Shown: in pieces, positions 25,319 to 36,263 of the stretch
How positions within the stretch are numbered: position 1 is the first letter of the stretch
How the letters are laid out: each line of letters begins with the position of its first letter
NCBI RefSeq assembly: GCF_006352065.1
Contig: NZ_CP040915.1
Span: forward strand, 1,488,001 to 1,552,000
DNA from: Georgenia yuyongxinii
GTDB lineage: Bacteria > Actinomycetota > Actinomycetes > Actinomycetales > Actinomycetaceae
Length of the DNA stretch: 64,000 nucleotides
Direction: 5' to 3'
Position numbers and translations under genes: made by a program
The notes under the pieces: generated by a model
Databases searched by the model: none
Told to the model about the DNA's origin: nothing
What the model saw: only the letters and a program-made list of their open reading frames with translations

Positions 25319-30312
<4,994 letters not shown>

Positions 30313-30353
30313 ACAACACTCACCCCGGTGAGAAGAAGTAAAAGCACTGCATA

Positions 30354-30367
30354 CGCGTCCACTGTAC
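30354..30367 (+). other. 3' half of the 23S rRNA processing stem
   Basis: CGCGTCCACTGTAC pairs perfectly with 27166-27179 before 23S rRNA. It lies between 23S and 5S rRNA and is the expected RNase III site that releases pre-23S. Confidence 0.75.
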
Positions 30368-30433
30368 GGTTCCCGAGAAACCCACCCCCAACACCCATGT
30401 TGGACAAAGGGCCCACGGGTACATCTCCATAGA

Positions 30434-30552
30434 GTTACGGCGGTCATAGCGAGGGGGAAACGCCCGGTCCCATTCCGAACCCGGAAGCTAAGCCCCTCAG
30501 CGCCGATGGTACTGCACGGGAGACTGTGTGGGAGAGTAGGACACCGCCGAAC
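30434..30552 (+). rRNA. rrf: 5S ribosomal RNA
   Basis: A 119-base 5S rRNA. The 5' GTTACGGCGG pairs with 3' CCGCCGAAC, and the loop sequence CCCATTCCGAACCCGGAAG with GCCGATGGTACTG is typical. It follows 23S by about 120 bases and is followed at once by the operon terminator. Exact ends are by pairing. Confidence 0.95.
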
Positions 30553-30560
30553 ACCCATTA

Positions 30561-30604
30561 ACAAGGAGGCCGCAACGATTTCGTTGCGGCCTCCTTGTCA
30601 TTTA
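30561..30604 (+). terminator. rrn operon terminator
   Basis: Arms 30561-30577 and 30582-30598 are perfect complements (ACAAGGAGGCCGCAACG with CGTTGCGGCCTCCTTGT) around a four-base ATTT loop, followed by CATTT. This is a strong intrinsic terminator nine bases after 5S rRNA. Confidence 0.92.
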
Positions 30605-30668
30605 TGGCCCAATTTGAGTTGCGCCGACGTGAAGATATAGGCGTGTGATGACGAGTAGAGGAAACACC

Positions 30669-33299
30669 ATGTCGACCAACCAAGAGGGCCAGAACCAGGA
30701 CCGCCCCCGCCGCCGCGATGATTCCGGCCGGCCCAAGCAAACCTCGCGTCCCGGTGGGGATCGGGCGTCCGGGAGCGGTAGCCGCTCGGGGCGTGGTGAC
30801 GAAGCTTTCCGCGAACGCGCCCAGCGCCGCTACGGCAGCGGCCCAAATGATGCGCGTCGTGACGGCCGCGGCGAACGCACGGGCGAGCGCCGCGAGGGCG
30901 GTTACCAGCCGCGCGACGGCGGCTACCAGCAGCGGGAGGGCGACCGTCGCAGCGGTGGTTACCAGGGTCGGTCGGACGACCGTCGCAGCGGTGGTTACCA
31001 GGGTCGCTCTGATGATCGCCGGGAGGGCGGTTACAAGCCCCGCGAAGGTGGCGCCCCGCAGCGTGAGGGCGACCGGCGCCAGGGTGGTTACCAGGGCCGG
31101 TCGGACGACCGGCACCAGGGTGGTTACCAGGGCCGGTCGGACGACCGTCGCCAGGGCGGTTACCAGGGCCGGTCGGACGACCGCCCCGCAGGTGGTTACC
31201 AGCGTCGCGAAGGTGGTTACCAGGGCCGCTCGGACGACCGCCCCGCAGGTGGTTACCAGCGTCGCGAAGGTGGTTACCAGGGGCGCTCGGACGACCGTCG
31301 CCAGGGCGGTTACCAGGGGCGGTCGGACGACCGTCGCCAGGGCGGTTACCAGGGCCGGTCGGACGACCGCCCCGCAGGTGGTTACCAGCGTCGCGAAGGT
31401 GGTTACCAGGGGCGCTCGGACGACCGCCGCGAGGGCGGTTACCAGGGGCGTTCCGATGATCGCCGCGAGGGCGGTTACAAGCCCCGCGAGGGCGGTTACA
31501 AGCCCCGCGAAGGTGGCTACAAGCCCCGCGAAGGTGGCGCCCCGCAGCGTGAGGGCGACCGGCGCCAAGGTGGCTACCAGGGTCGCTCCGATGACCGACC
31601 CGCAGGTGGTTACCAGCAGCGTGATAGCGACCGCCCCGCAGGTGGTTACCAGGGGCGCTCGGACGACCGCCGCGAGGGCGGTTACCAGAGGCGTTCCGAT
31701 GATCGGCGCGAGGGCGGTTACAAGCCCCGCGAAGGTGGCGCCCCGCAGCGTGAGGGCGACCGGCGCCAAGGTGGCTACCAGGGTCGCTCCGATGACCGCC
31801 CCGCAGGTGGTTACCAGCAGCGTGACAGCGACCGCCGTCAGGGTGATTTCCAGGGGCGCTCCGATGACCGTCGCCAGGGTGGCTACCAGGGTCGGTCGGA
31901 CGACCGCCCCGCAGGTGGCTACCAGGGTCGCTCCGACGACCGCCCCGCAGGTGGTTACCAGGGGCGCTCGGACGACCGTCGCCAGAGTGGTTACCAAGGT
32001 CGCTCCGATGACCGTCGTGAAGGTGGTTACCAGCGCCGAGAGGGTGGTTTCCAGCAGCGTGATGGCGACCGCCGCCAGGGTGGCTACCAGGGGCGCTCGG
32101 ACGACCGCCCCGCAGGCGGCCATCAAGGACGCTCGGACGAGCGGCGTGACGGCGGCTTCCAGAAGCGTGAGGGCAGCCCTCGTGGGGGTAGCTATCAGCA
32201 GCGCGATGGTGGCTTCCAACGGCGAGACGATGGCCGACACACGGGCGGAGAAGCACGTGGGTTCGGTCCGCGCCGCGATGACTACGAGGACCGCCCGGCG
32301 GAGCCTCACATCTCGGACGAGGTCGAGGCGCAGATGCTTGACCGCGCTGCGCGTACCCGGCTGCGGACCCTCGGCAAGAACAATGCAGAGCTCGTGGCTC
32401 GTCACCTCGTGATGGCCGGCCGTCTTATCGACGATGAACCCGAGACCGCCTATGGCCATGCACAGGCCGCCATGCGGCGTGCGGGTCGCGTCGACGTCGT
32501 CCGGGAGGCTCTTGCCCTCACCGCGTACGCAACGGGTAGGTACTCCGAGGCGTTGCGTGAACTGCGGACCGTGCGTCGTCTCTCCGGCATCGACGCGCAC
32601 CGCGCCATGGAGGCCGACTGTGAGCGCGGCCTCGGCCGACCGGAGCGCGCCCTGACAGTCGTGGCCGAGACAGACCCTGGCACGTTGTCCGAGGAGGACC
32701 GTGTCGAGCTCGCCATCGTCGCTAGCGGCGCCCGCTCCGACCTGGGTGAGCATGAGGCGGGCCTGCTCGTGCTCGAGTCCAGGCTCGTGGACCACGTAAA
32801 GGACCCTGAGCTTCTCCGTCGGCTGACGCTCGTGCGGGCAGACCGGCTCGAGGAGCTCGGCCGCATGGACGAGGCCGACGCCGCGCGGGCGGCCGCCGGC
32901 CCGGAGATGGACGACGATGAGCCGATCGTCGTCGTGGACCTGGAGGCGTCCGAGGCCGAGGCAGAAGACGAGGACTTCGCCGAACCGACGGATGACGTGG
33001 CCACGACCGACGCTGAGCCCTTGACGGACCTGCCGGCCGATGAGGATGCCGCAGCGGACGAGGCAGCGGACGTTGAGCCGGATGCCGCAGCGGACGAGGC
33101 AGCGGACGTTGAGCCGGATGCCGCAGCGGACGTTGAGCCGGATGCCGCAGCGGACGTTGAGCCGGATGCCGCAGCGGACGAGGCGCCGGCAGCCCCGACC
33201 GACGAGACACCAGACGCCGGAGCCGAGCAGCCGACGGCGTCGGAGACCGAACAGCCCGCCCCCGGTGCGGAGGAGACCGCGGACGAGGAGCGCGCATGA
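30669..33299 (+). CDS. Repeat-rich Arg/Gly/Tyr disordered protein with TPR-like C-terminus
   Basis: An 876-residue protein in three parts. Residues about 1-75 are charged linker. About 76-525 are a tandem array built on GGYQGRSDDR followed by RQ, RE, RS or PA; about 20 copies of QGRSDD are seen, mixed with GGYQRRE, GGYKPRE and GGAPQREGDR variants. About 550-745 is an alpha-helical TPR-like domain (LDRAARTRLRTLGKNNAELV onward, with A/G repeats every 34 or so residues). The rest is an acidic tail with repeats of AADVEPDA. The position between tyrS and the HAD gene matches TPR protein Rv1691 of M. tuberculosis; only the helical domain is likely shared. RGG- and Tyr-rich arrays often bind RNA and condense. 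GAGGAAA precedes ATG 30669. Confidence 0.85.
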   Translation: MSTNQEGQNQDRPRRRDDSGRPKQTSRPGGDRASGSGSRSGRGDEAFRERAQRRYGSGPNDARRDGRGERTGERREGGYQPRDGGYQQREGDRRSGGYQGRSDDRRSGGYQGRSDDRREGGYKPREGGAPQREGDRRQGGYQGRSDDRHQGGYQGRSDDRRQGGYQGRSDDRPAGGYQRREGGYQGRSDDRPAGGYQRREGGYQGRSDDRRQGGYQGRSDDRRQGGYQGRSDDRPAGGYQRREGGYQGRSDDRREGGYQGRSDDRREGGYKPREGGYKPREGGYKPREGGAPQREGDRRQGGYQGRSDDRPAGGYQQRDSDRPAGGYQGRSDDRREGGYQRRSDDRREGGYKPREGGAPQREGDRRQGGYQGRSDDRPAGGYQQRDSDRRQGDFQGRSDDRRQGGYQGRSDDRPAGGYQGRSDDRPAGGYQGRSDDRRQSGYQGRSDDRREGGYQRREGGFQQRDGDRRQGGYQGRSDDRPAGGHQGRSDERRDGGFQKREGSPRGGSYQQRDGGFQRRDDGRHTGGEARGFGPRRDDYEDRPAEPHISDEVEAQMLDRAARTRLRTLGKNNAELVARHLVMAGRLIDDEPETAYGHAQAAMRRAGRVDVVREALALTAYATGRYSEALRELRTVRRLSGIDAHRAMEADCERGLGRPERALTVVAETDPGTLSEEDRVELAIVASGARSDLGEHEAGLLVLESRLVDHVKDPELLRRLTLVRADRLEELGRMDEADAARAAAGPEMDDDEPIVVVDLEASEAEAEDEDFAEPTDDVATTDAEPLTDLPADEDAAADEAADVEPDAAADEAADVEPDAAADVEPDAAADVEPDAAADEAPAAPTDETPDAGAEQPTASETEQPAPGAEETADEERA
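30897..32245 (+). repeat. Tandem coding repeats (GGYQGRSDDR units)
   Basis: About 1.35 kb of imperfect 30- to 36-base repeats inside the preceding gene, with the core GGTTACCAGGGNCGNTCGGA encoding GYQGRSD. Many neighbouring units are nearly identical at the DNA level, including silent positions, which points to recent expansion or homogenisation. It is an assembly and slippage hotspot. It is not a CRISPR array: there are no unique spacers and the reading frame is kept throughout. Confidence 0.9.
33040..33184 (+). repeat. Tandem coding repeats of the acidic tail
   Basis: The segment repeats GATGCCGCAGCGGACGTTGA and GCGGACGAGGCAGCGGACGT type units four or five times, encoding AADVEPDA and ADEAADVEPDA. 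The units are almost identical, as in the N-terminal array, so two independent repeat expansions occur in one gene: one basic, one acidic. Confidence 0.8.
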
Positions 33300-34363
33300 G
33301 CACCCCCACCATGCTTCTCGCCAGCGCGGAGCCCCTGGCCACCGCGTATGACGTTGCACTGATGGACCTCGACGGAGTCTGCTATCGCGGCGCCGAACCG
33401 GTCGACCACGCCGACGCGGCGGTGGAAGAGGCACGGCGCCTCGGGCTCCGCATGATGTTCGTGACCAACAACGCTGCCCGCGAGCCGCAGACGGTGGCCG
33501 ACCAGCTCAGCTCCCTGGGCATCCCGACGTCCCCGGACGAGGTGATGACCTCGTCCCAGGCGGCGGCCGCCATCCTCGCCGCGGTGCTGCCCACCGGCTC
33601 GGTCGTCCTGCCTATCGGCGGCGCCGGCCTGCGGACAGCCCTGACGGAAGCCGGGTTCACCCTGGCCACGGGCGCGCACGACGCACCGGTCGCCGTCGTC
33701 CAGGGATTTTCGCCGGACCTCGGGTGGCGCGAGCTCACCGAGGCCGCCTACGCGATCAACGCCGGTGCGCGGTACGTGGCCACGAACCTCGACGCCACCC
33801 TGCCCACCGAGCGTGGTATGGCGGTCGGGAACGGCTCCCTCGTGGCGGCCGTGACGAACGCTACCGGCGTCGTCCCCATCTCCGCGGGCAAGCCTGAGCC
33901 GGAGATCTTCCGGCAGGCGACCCGTCGCAGCGCCGGCAGCCGCCCGATCGCTGTCGGTGACCGGCTCAACACCGACATCGCCGGCGCCCGCGCCGCCGGC
34001 ATCCCCAGCGTGCATGTCCTCACCGGCGTCAGCGACGCCCGCGACGTCGTCCTCGCCGCACCGCACGAGCGCCCGAGCTACCTCGCCGTCGACCTCCGCG
34101 GCCTGGTGGAGCCCCACCCCGTCCCCAGCCGGGACGGCGCGTGGTGGCGCTGCGGCGCCGCGGCGGCCCGCGTGAGTGGTGCGGAGCCCCATCTGGAGAT
34201 CCGGCTCGGTGACCGGGAGGTCCCGCTGGAGCCCGGCGAGCCGGTGACCGTCTCCCTGGACACGTGGCGATGCCTCGCCGCCGCAGCGTGGGAAGCGGCC
34301 GACGACGGCGCGCCGCTCACCGTCTCGCAGGTGCCTGCGCTCCAGGTGGTCGCGCCGCGATAG
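33296..34363 (+). CDS. HAD-IIA family phosphatase
   Basis: A 355-residue haloacid dehalogenase superfamily hydrolase of the NagD/phosphoglycolate phosphatase subgroup. Motif I DLDGVCYRG (about 23-31), motif II VTNNAA (about 55-60) and motif IV GDRLNTDIAGA (about 221-231) are present, so the aspartyl-phosphate chemistry should be intact. The last 90 or so residues form an extra domain after the HAD core, as in Rv1692, a glycerol-3-phosphate phosphatase in M. tuberculosis; the same activity is possible here. Its ATG overlaps the previous stop. Confidence 0.93.
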   Translation: MSTPTMLLASAEPLATAYDVALMDLDGVCYRGAEPVDHADAAVEEARRLGLRMMFVTNNAAREPQTVADQLSSLGIPTSPDEVMTSSQAAAAILAAVLPTGSVVLPIGGAGLRTALTEAGFTLATGAHDAPVAVVQGFSPDLGWRELTEAAYAINAGARYVATNLDATLPTERGMAVGNGSLVAAVTNATGVVPISAGKPEPEIFRQATRRSAGSRPIAVGDRLNTDIAGARAAGIPSVHVLTGVSDARDVVLAAPHERPSYLAVDLRGLVEPHPVPSRDGAWWRCGAAAARVSGAEPHLEIRLGDREVPLEPGEPVTVSLDTWRCLAAAAWEAADDGAPLTVSQVPALQVVAPR

Positions 34364-34563: not shown

Positions 34564-35427
34564 GTGGCCCGGCTCGTCCGTATCGATACCGAGCTCGTCC
34601 GCCGCGGCCTGGCCCGGTCGCGTCAGCACGCCGGTGAGCTGCTGGCCGCCGGCCATGTGCGACTCGACGGGCAGGTGGTGACCAAGCCGGCCCGTCAGGT
34701 GGACCCCGCGCAGGCGCTCCTGGTGGACGACGCCGGAGCCGCCGACGACTACGTCTCACGCGGCGCCCACAAGCTCGCCGGCGCCCTCGACGCGCTCGGT
34801 GACGCGGCCCCACTCGTCGCCGGCCGCCGCTGCCTGGACGCGGGCGCCTCCACCGGCGGCTTCACCGACGTCCTCCTGCGCCGCGGGGCCGCCCACGTGG
34901 TCGCCGTCGACGTCGGCTACGGCCAGCTCGCCTGGTCCCTGCAGACCGACCCCCGGGTGACGGTCCTGGACCGGACGAACGTGCGCACGCTGACCCCCCA
35001 GATGGTGGCGCCGGCCCCGCAGCTGGTGGTCGGCGACATGTCCTTCATCTCCCTGACCCTGGTTCTGCCGGCGCTGGCCCGGGCGGCCGCGCCGGACGCC
35101 GACGTTCTCCTCATGGTCAAGCCCCAGTTCGAGGTGGGCAAGGAGCGCCTCGGCCACGGTGGCGTCGTCCGCGACACCGCGTTGCACGTGGAGTCCGTGC
35201 TCACGGTCGCCGAGGCCGCCACCCGCGAGGGCCTCGACACCTGGGCCGTCGTGCCCAGCCCGCTGCCGGGCCCCTCGGGCAACGTGGAGTACTTCGTGGC
35301 GCTGCGCCGGGACCACCCCGGTGCCCTGCGGGGTGAGGCGCTGCGCGACGCCGTCGCCGCCGCGGTGCGCACGGGCCCGGCGGGGACCGCCGCCGTACCG
35401 ACCGACCCCGAGGGGGAGCCAGCATGA
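34564..35427 (+). CDS. tlyA: TlyA-type rRNA 2'-O-methyltransferase
   Basis: A 287-residue protein with an N-terminal S4 RNA-binding domain (RIDTELVRRGLARSRQHAGEL, about 4-65) and an FtsJ-like Rossmann methyltransferase domain (about 75-250; CLDAGASTGGFTDVLL is the SAM motif, VVGDMSFISL and VKPQFEV carry catalytic Asp and Lys). In mycobacteria TlyA methylates 16S C1409 and 23S C1920, giving capreomycin sensitivity. Start is GTG 34564; the stop overlaps the nadK ATG. Confidence 0.95.
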   Translation: MARLVRIDTELVRRGLARSRQHAGELLAAGHVRLDGQVVTKPARQVDPAQALLVDDAGAADDYVSRGAHKLAGALDALGDAAPLVAGRRCLDAGASTGGFTDVLLRRGAAHVVAVDVGYGQLAWSLQTDPRVTVLDRTNVRTLTPQMVAPAPQLVVGDMSFISLTLVLPALARAAAPDADVLLMVKPQFEVGKERLGHGGVVRDTALHVESVLTVAEAATREGLDTWAVVPSPLPGPSGNVEYFVALRRDHPGALRGEALRDAVAAAVRTGPAGTAAVPTDPEGEPA

Positions 35428-36263
35428 GCCGCCGCATCCTGGTCGTCTGTCACGAGGGCCGACCCGACGCCGTCGCCGCCGCGGACAACCTCAGCGCGGC
35501 CCTCCAGGCGAACGGTATCGACACCATCCGCGACGGCAGCGCGGAGGGCGTCGAGCTCGCCATCGTCCTCGGCGGCGACGGCACCATCCTGCGTGCGGCG
35601 GAGGTGGCCCGGCGCCACGACGTCCCCCTCCTCGGTGTCAATCTCGGCCACGTAGGCTTCCTCGCCGAGGCCGAGGAGGAGGCGTTGCCCGACGTGGTCG
35701 ACCGCGTGGTCGCCCGCGACTACCTCGTCGAGGAACGGATGACGCTCGACATCACGATCACCCGCCCGGACGGCACGGTCGAGCGGGACTGGGCCATCAA
35801 CGAGGCCGCCGTGGAGAAGGGCGCACGCGCTCGCATGGTCGAGGCCACCATCGGCGTCGACGGGCGGGGTCTGTCCACCTTCGGCTGCGACGGCATCGTC
35901 CTGGCCACCCCCACCGGGTCCACCGCCTACGCCTTCTCCGGCGGCGGCCCCATCGTGTGGCCCGACGTCGACGCGCTCCTGGTCGTCCCCGTCGCCGCGC
36001 ACGCATTGTTCGCCCGGCCGCTGGTCGTGGGGCCGAACTCGGTGCTGGAGGTCGAGGTGCTGCCGTACGAGGAGAAGCACGCGGTGGTGTGGTGCGATGG
36101 GCGGCGGATGCTCGACGCGCCCGCCGGGTCCCGGATCCGGGTGTGCCGGGGCGCCCAGCCGGTGCGGCTCGCCCGGATGAGCCAGGTCCCCTTCTCCGGC
36201 CGCCTCGTCGCCAAGTTCCGACTGCCGGTCCAGGGCTGGCGCGGCGTGCGGGAGCGGGCGTGA
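35424..36263 (+). CDS. nadK: NAD kinase
   Basis: Makes NADP from NAD and ATP or polyphosphate. The 279-residue protein has VLGGDGTIL (about 48-56), NLGHVGFLAE, NEAAVEKG (about 124-131) and TPTGSTAYAFSGGGP (about 162-176), all diagnostic of the family. Overlaps tlyA at its start and recN at its stop. Confidence 0.97.
   Translation: MSRRILVVCHEGRPDAVAAADNLSAALQANGIDTIRDGSAEGVELAIVLGGDGTILRAAEVARRHDVPLLGVNLGHVGFLAEAEEEALPDVVDRVVARDYLVEERMTLDITITRPDGTVERDWAINEAAVEKGARARMVEATIGVDGRGLSTFGCDGIVLATPTGSTAYAFSGGGPIVWPDVDALLVVPVAAHALFARPLVVGPNSVLEVEVLPYEEKHAVVWCDGRRMLDAPAGSRIRVCRGAQPVRLARMSQVPFSGRLVAKFRLPVQGWRGVRERA

Follow-up and report, generated by a model that had tools for sequence, protein, structure and literature searches.

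An arginine-, glycine- and tyrosine-rich repeat array joined to a conserved domain of actinobacteria and encoded behind an rRNA operon of Georgenia yuyongxinii

The rRNA operon and the genes that follow it

The window analysed here is a stretch of 64,000 nucleotides from Georgenia yuyongxinii (NZ_CP040915.1, forward-strand positions 1,488,001 to 1,552,000). It contains an rRNA operon on the plus strand (25319–30552), in which Rfam places the 16S gene at 25319–26841, the 23S gene at 27199–30315 and the 5S gene at 30436–30552. Directly 3′ of the 5S gene, a long and perfect hairpin (30561–30598, plus strand) is presumed to act as the rrn terminator, and the segment that contains it (30553–30612) folds with a minimum free energy of −36.9 kcal/mol (z −8.9). 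The hairpin has no T run and is missing from the output of the terminator pattern scan; between 30300 and 33500, pattern scanning found neither promoters nor T-run terminators. The hairpin carries an AAGGAGG/CCTCCTT pair, which has the letters of the Shine–Dalgarno and anti-Shine–Dalgarno sequences.

The gene behind this hairpin (30669–33299, plus strand) is an intact frame of 876 residues plus a stop codon. The sequence-only reading, which had placed it 64 bases past the terminator, was right about the position directly behind the hairpin, although the gap measures 70 bases. The ATG at 30669 is preceded by a Shine–Dalgarno-like AGAGGA (30657–30662, plus strand) and coincides in an alignment with the ATGs of nine relatives, nine of the ten sequences having a purine-rich stretch before the start; as the start-choosing rule favours purine-preceded starts, this stretch gives no independent support.

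Three further plus-strand genes follow. The first, a HAD phosphatase in an Rv1692-like position (33296–34363; open reading frame with Pfam Hydrolase_6 at 7.1e-25 and Hydrolase_like at 4.5e-17, and a GNAT_like match below the Pfam cut-off), shares 4 bases of its start with the stop of the array gene. It is succeeded by a protein with S4 and FtsJ-like methyltransferase domains in Pfam (34564–35427), which we take to be of the TlyA type from our knowledge of this locus, and by a NAD kinase (35424–36263; Pfam). This order of HAD phosphatase, TlyA-type protein and NAD kinase agrees with the earlier assignment to an Rv1691-type locus, and on the basis of gene order the array gene is taken to be orthologous to Rv1691 of Mycobacterium tuberculosis. 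Farther downstream lies a SteA-like protein (PF12555, 37977–39179), preceded by an open reading frame that by eye resembles RecN.

Other long open reading frames cross the array, namely two antisense frames of 958 and 552 residues (within 30558–33434, minus strand) and one plus-strand frame of 564 residues (30718–32412). They probably arise because codon periodicity clears stops in several frames at once, and they look like by-products rather than genes. A misassembled repeat is unlikely, since the source genome is one contig of 4.17 Mb in which the gene gives a single match, and since eight congeners have open frames of 662–900 residues for this gene. A phage origin was rejected, as phage records gave no match to the gene at E 1e-5.

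Architecture of the encoded protein

From the N terminus, the protein is made up of a lead and an array, which together form its N-terminal half, then the conserved domain and finally the acidic tail. The lead (residues 1–76; 30669–30896) has no tandem units, and unit parsing divides the array (residues 77–523; 30897–32237) into 39 units, of which 27 have 12 residues, eight have seven, three have 19 (7+12) and one has 10. QGRSDD occurs 20 times in the protein, as the earlier count of about 20 had it, and GGYQGRSDDR 18 times. The third position of a unit is Tyr or Phe in 38 of the 39, so that the spacing of aromatic residues is mostly 12 or seven. The N-terminal 539 residues match themselves at a shift of 12 residues with a frequency of 0.48 (0.15 expected from composition) and tandem-repeat scores of the gene reach 649, which places the array far beyond chance.

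The composition of the array is dominated by glycine (24.6 %), arginine (21.9 %), aspartate (13.2 %), glutamine (11.9 %) and tyrosine (7.6 %), with 1.3 % lysine and with Leu, Ile, Val, Met and Cys entirely missing. Described earlier as basic, the array does carry a net positive charge, but a weak one (R+K 23.2 %, D+E 17.9 %, +0.054 per residue). Its local charge asymmetry of 0.018 is far below the mean of 500 shuffles (0.069, sd 0.008), a difference that derives in part from the periodicity. The array is R/G-rich, contains aromatic residues and has low hydrophobicity, as do RG/RGG-type regions, and its charge–hydropathy value (−0.54) lies on the disordered side; the proposed resemblance to disordered regions that bind RNA or condense was thus borne out at the level of composition. 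Judged in this way, the N-terminal half appears to be an intrinsically disordered, well-mixed polyampholyte of Arg, Gly and Asp with evenly spaced Tyr. Among 27 aligned 12-residue units pN/pS is 0.30, a rough guide, as the units are mutually non-independent, which suggests constraint at the protein level.

The conserved domain (residues ~547–746; 32307–32906) was delimited with two alignments, A1 (34 rows) and A2 (51 rows), each of which has 17 invariant columns, with a mean column identity of 53 %. It fits the pattern RAGR..VVREA / ALRELR..RR / ADCERGLGRPERA of the Rv1691-type actinobacterial family, a pattern derived from our own alignment. The domain had been called TPR-like; it is real and its pattern is helical, but TPR_2 reaches 12.7 bits against a Pfam cut-off of 27, and the best match of the domain profile in the PDB is SRP72 at E 0.044. 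A TPR-like fold is therefore plausible but unproven. NCBIfam returned nothing above its cut-off. The tail (residues 763–876; 32955–33296), rich in Ala, Asp, Glu and Pro, is as acidic and repetitive as first described, with 38 % D+E and repeats of 24 and 36 bases.

Spread of the family and constraint on its N-terminal region

The domain query matched all nine genomes of the genus, 203 of 213 genomes of the family and 236 of 248 genomes of the order sample, and the domain profile matched 152 of 396 genomes of the phylum sample, a figure that does not give class coverage. Good-quality genomes that gave no domain match numbered six of 199 in the family sample and five of 233 in the order sample. 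Two matches per genome were seen in two family genomes, two order genomes and one phylum genome; in one of the family genomes, one of the two matches sits within a 1780-residue open frame. The family is nearly always single-copy and is widespread in the order and the class, and it also reaches some of the other classes of actinobacteria, which contradicts the description of the protein as lineage-specific.

In total 181 loci were read, of which 177 are distinct and 158 are distinct with a complete 5′ end. In these 158, an N-terminal region with at least 15 % arginine extends over at least 50 residues in 147, at least 100 in 134, at least 200 in 105 and at least 300 in 67. N-terminal length varies from 16 to 817 residues among loci with a complete 5′ end, with possible errors of tens of residues, the starts having been set by rule. 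Beyond the order, a long N-terminal region is present in L195, L198 and L199 (presumed Streptomyces) and in L192 and L196. Outside the class, four of nine loci have at least 100 residues with at least 15 % arginine; three others reach 13–14 %, one has a short region and one is truncated. Two presumed mycobacterial loci (L191 and L210) resemble the window in the conserved domain, which lies 102–120 bases behind a 5S gene, but their N-terminal regions are short, with 39–57 arginine-containing residues and no tandem array (539 residues in the window protein), and their tails measure 26–30 residues (114 in the window protein). The arginine-rich form is therefore the usual one among the loci read and the plain short form the exception, the reverse of the earlier statement that this position usually holds a plain TPR protein. 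With the array alone as query, none of 60 genomes was matched, although at least two of them (G462 and G478) carry arginine-rich N-terminal regions, which leaves this negative uninformative.

Over 159 loci with a complete 5′ end and at least 30 N-terminal residues, the medians are 25 % arginine, 20 % glycine, 18 % D+E, 5.5 % aromatic residues, 0.5 % lysine and 1.3 % LIVMC. The median net charge of the N-terminal region is +0.078 (0.05 to 0.13 for the 5–95 % range), and that of the tail is −0.33 in the 144 non-fused loci. Among the 36 pairs within the genus, the domain has a mean identity of 0.82 and the N-terminal composition a mean cosine of 0.95 (minimum 0.90), whereas shared N-terminal 4-mers have a mean Jaccard index of 0.08 (maximum 0.41). 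Among congeners, then, the individual repeat units are replaced but the overall composition persists.

A GC-driven origin of the array arginine was rejected: over 153 loci and before kinship correction, arginine correlates with GC at rho −0.20 in the array and +0.59 in the domain. In the same comparison, likewise uncorrected for kinship, array glycine (rho +0.50), lysine (−0.56), aromatic residues (−0.49) and acidic residues (−0.42) track GC; some features of the composition are thus tuned to GC. Self-attraction between a basic and an acidic end had also been proposed. Across 140 loci, end charges are indeed correlated (rho −0.47). In independent contrasts corrected for kinship, however, the relation falls to rho −0.08 (p 0.32; 81 of 133 contrasts of opposite sign), and charge compensation was therefore rejected as mostly kinship, which leaves self-attraction with weak support at most. 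In length, by contrast, the N-terminal region and the tail still vary together after this correction (rho 0.24, p 0.004).

Of the 181 loci, 105 have a 5S gene on the same strand no more than 600 bases upstream. Among distinct loci for which 1000 or more upstream bases were available, this is true of 64 out of 99; the remaining 35 of the 99 have no detectable 5S gene in that range, which a divergent 5S could escape. The hairpin behind the 5S gene is kept in relatives, as seen by alignment. Perfect stems of at least eight pairs occur in 73 of 98 intergenic stretches, with letters that differ from lineage to lineage. The AGGAGG..CCTCCT pair appears in eight of these 98, seven of them from the window's genus and its nearest relative, and this hairpin motif is thus local.

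Downstream, 165 of the 181 loci encode a HAD relative, which in 17 of them is fused in frame to the domain, and Pfam confirmed HAD domains in all three fusions tested. TlyA was detected in 91 and NadK in 78 of the 181 loci, both counts being limited by short downstream sequence. The fusions belong to two Actinomyces, to Mobiluncus, Schaalia, Pauljensenia and Gleimia, to nine genomes of the window's family and, in L193 and L194, to another order of the class. In one fusion (L139), a region rich in R, G, D and Y, the domain, the HAD part and an acidic tail form a single frame of 1130 residues.

Possible roles of the array protein

RG/RGG-type disordered regions are well known from eukaryotic RNA-binding proteins such as FUS, DDX4 and LAF-1. 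The array shares with them its content of R, G, Y/F and D, the near-absence of aliphatic residues and the spaced aromatics; it differs in being bacterial, periodic and charge-balanced, nearly all of its units containing D or E, and in being joined to a helical-looking domain rather than to an RRM or a helicase, and no homology is implied. In the same genome, R/G-rich stretches occur in RNase E and in three of eight DEAD-family loci read (21 matches), none with such an array. The richest 80 residues picked in each of these proteins contain 17–25 % R and 16–22 % G, as the array does, but 0–5 % aromatic residues and no periodic units. RG-type disordered regions are of a known kind; the novelty lies in the periodic and charge-balanced form of this RG/Tyr array and in its attachment to a conserved domain of actinobacteria encoded behind rrn.

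In a study on M. smegmatis, MSMEG_3754, the orthologue of Rv1691 annotated in mycobacteria as a TPR-repeat-containing protein, is in the high-confidence list from a crosslinked RNA polymerase beta pull-down (PMC7092591). FLAG-MSMEG_3754 yielded no DNA, an amount that according to the authors could be below detection, and of this and another such protein they wrote that they 'may simply be RNA associated' (PMC7092591). As the N-terminal region of MSMEG_3754 is probably short, these data say nothing on the array. Enrichment of F, Y, D and N is described for the RG motifs of a functionally annotated human set (PMC12502372), and enrichment of arginine for low-complexity regions in bacterial proteins with RNA-binding terms (PMC6821194). 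Low-complexity regions in general are depleted of arginine and aromatic residues according to the latter source, which makes the array unusual. In the passages of open-licence main text that were searched, the gene is mentioned for mycobacteria only, with neither a description of the array nor a report of RNA binding or condensation by an array-bearing member; a review of bacterial phase transitions (PMC9312465) lacks the terms Streptomyces, Actinobacteria and tetratricopeptide.

Our preferred reading, held tentatively and at somewhat less than even confidence, is a scaffold associated with RNA or ribonucleoprotein through its charge-balanced RG/Tyr array. The array would serve as a low-specificity RNA-contacting 'sticker' region, with Arg and Tyr as stickers and Gly, Ser, Gln and Asp as spacers; the conserved domain would dock on one specific partner, be it from transcription, rRNA or translation, and the acidic tail may tune solubility or compete with RNA for the array. 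This reading is favoured by the data on the mycobacterial orthologue, by the RG and arginine literature (PMC12502372 and PMC6821194) and by the frequent position behind rrn. It is also supported by the recurrence of the arginine-rich region, by a composition kept while the sequence changes, by the low pN/pS, by the TlyA-type methyltransferase downstream in the window and by the R/G-rich stretches of RNase E and the DEAD-family proteins. On the other hand, it is weakened by the small net charge, by the loci with no detectable 5S gene, by the GC dependence of array glycine, aromatic and acidic residues, and by the weak match of the domain to its best solved relative.

The fusions to a metabolic-type phosphatase fit a metabolic partner better than RNA. 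The protein might accordingly scaffold or regulate the neighbouring HAD phosphatase, its conserved domain holding the enzyme and its disordered arms solubilising or placing it, with no role for RNA. The persistence of a HAD gene downstream, the confirmed fusions and the overlap of the two genes in the window speak for such a partner, and so does the description of Rv1692 as a glycerol-3-phosphate phosphatase (PMC12722247). Nevertheless, we consider this the somewhat unlikely main rival: the downstream sequence of 16 of the 181 loci yielded no HAD (many with only ~1500 bases downstream, and divergent HADs may escape), the N-terminal regions of L193 and L194 span just 16 and 24 residues, so that array and phosphatase link are separable, and the Tyr/Arg-rich composition seems unlike that of an ordinary linker. 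The RNA-linked and phosphatase-partner readings may both be valid together. The divergence of units even inside the genus, the wide range of N-terminal length and the partly GC-following composition would also suit a weakly constrained expansion, in which tandem duplication drifts and charge balance keeps a spacer soluble, one that has no specific partner. This is unlikely, given that arginine and the near-absence of lysine are kept, that array arginine, unlike that of the domain, does not follow GC, that synonymous differences predominate between units and that the arginine-rich region recurs so widely. A nucleoid- or DNA-associated protein near rrn loci is very improbable; the association of MSMEG_3754 with crosslinked RNA polymerase and the capacity of arginine-rich disordered regions to bind DNA (PMC6821194) would agree with it, but the FLAG-tagged orthologue gave no DNA, with the detection limit given above.

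A bolder extension of the RNA-linked reading, which we regard as quite improbable, is a scaffold of rRNA loci that is broadly conserved in actinobacteria and often encoded right behind the operon. Its Arg/Tyr array would condense with rRNA as it is being made, or else with the clusters of RNA polymerase engaged in transcribing it, as a functional counterpart of nucleolar RG proteins with a lineage-tuned repeat number. The gene may be an overlooked RNA-handling protein. It is conserved, uncharacterised and nearly always single-copy in actinobacteria, with a long, arginine-rich and disordered-looking region in most loci read. Its natural series of N-terminal lengths, fusions and short forms suits tests of repeat number against RNA binding and condensation, and because it so often lies behind rrn, a connection with the making of ribosomes can be tested directly. 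MSMEG_3754 is also listed in a table of a ClpC1 interactome (PMC10433963).
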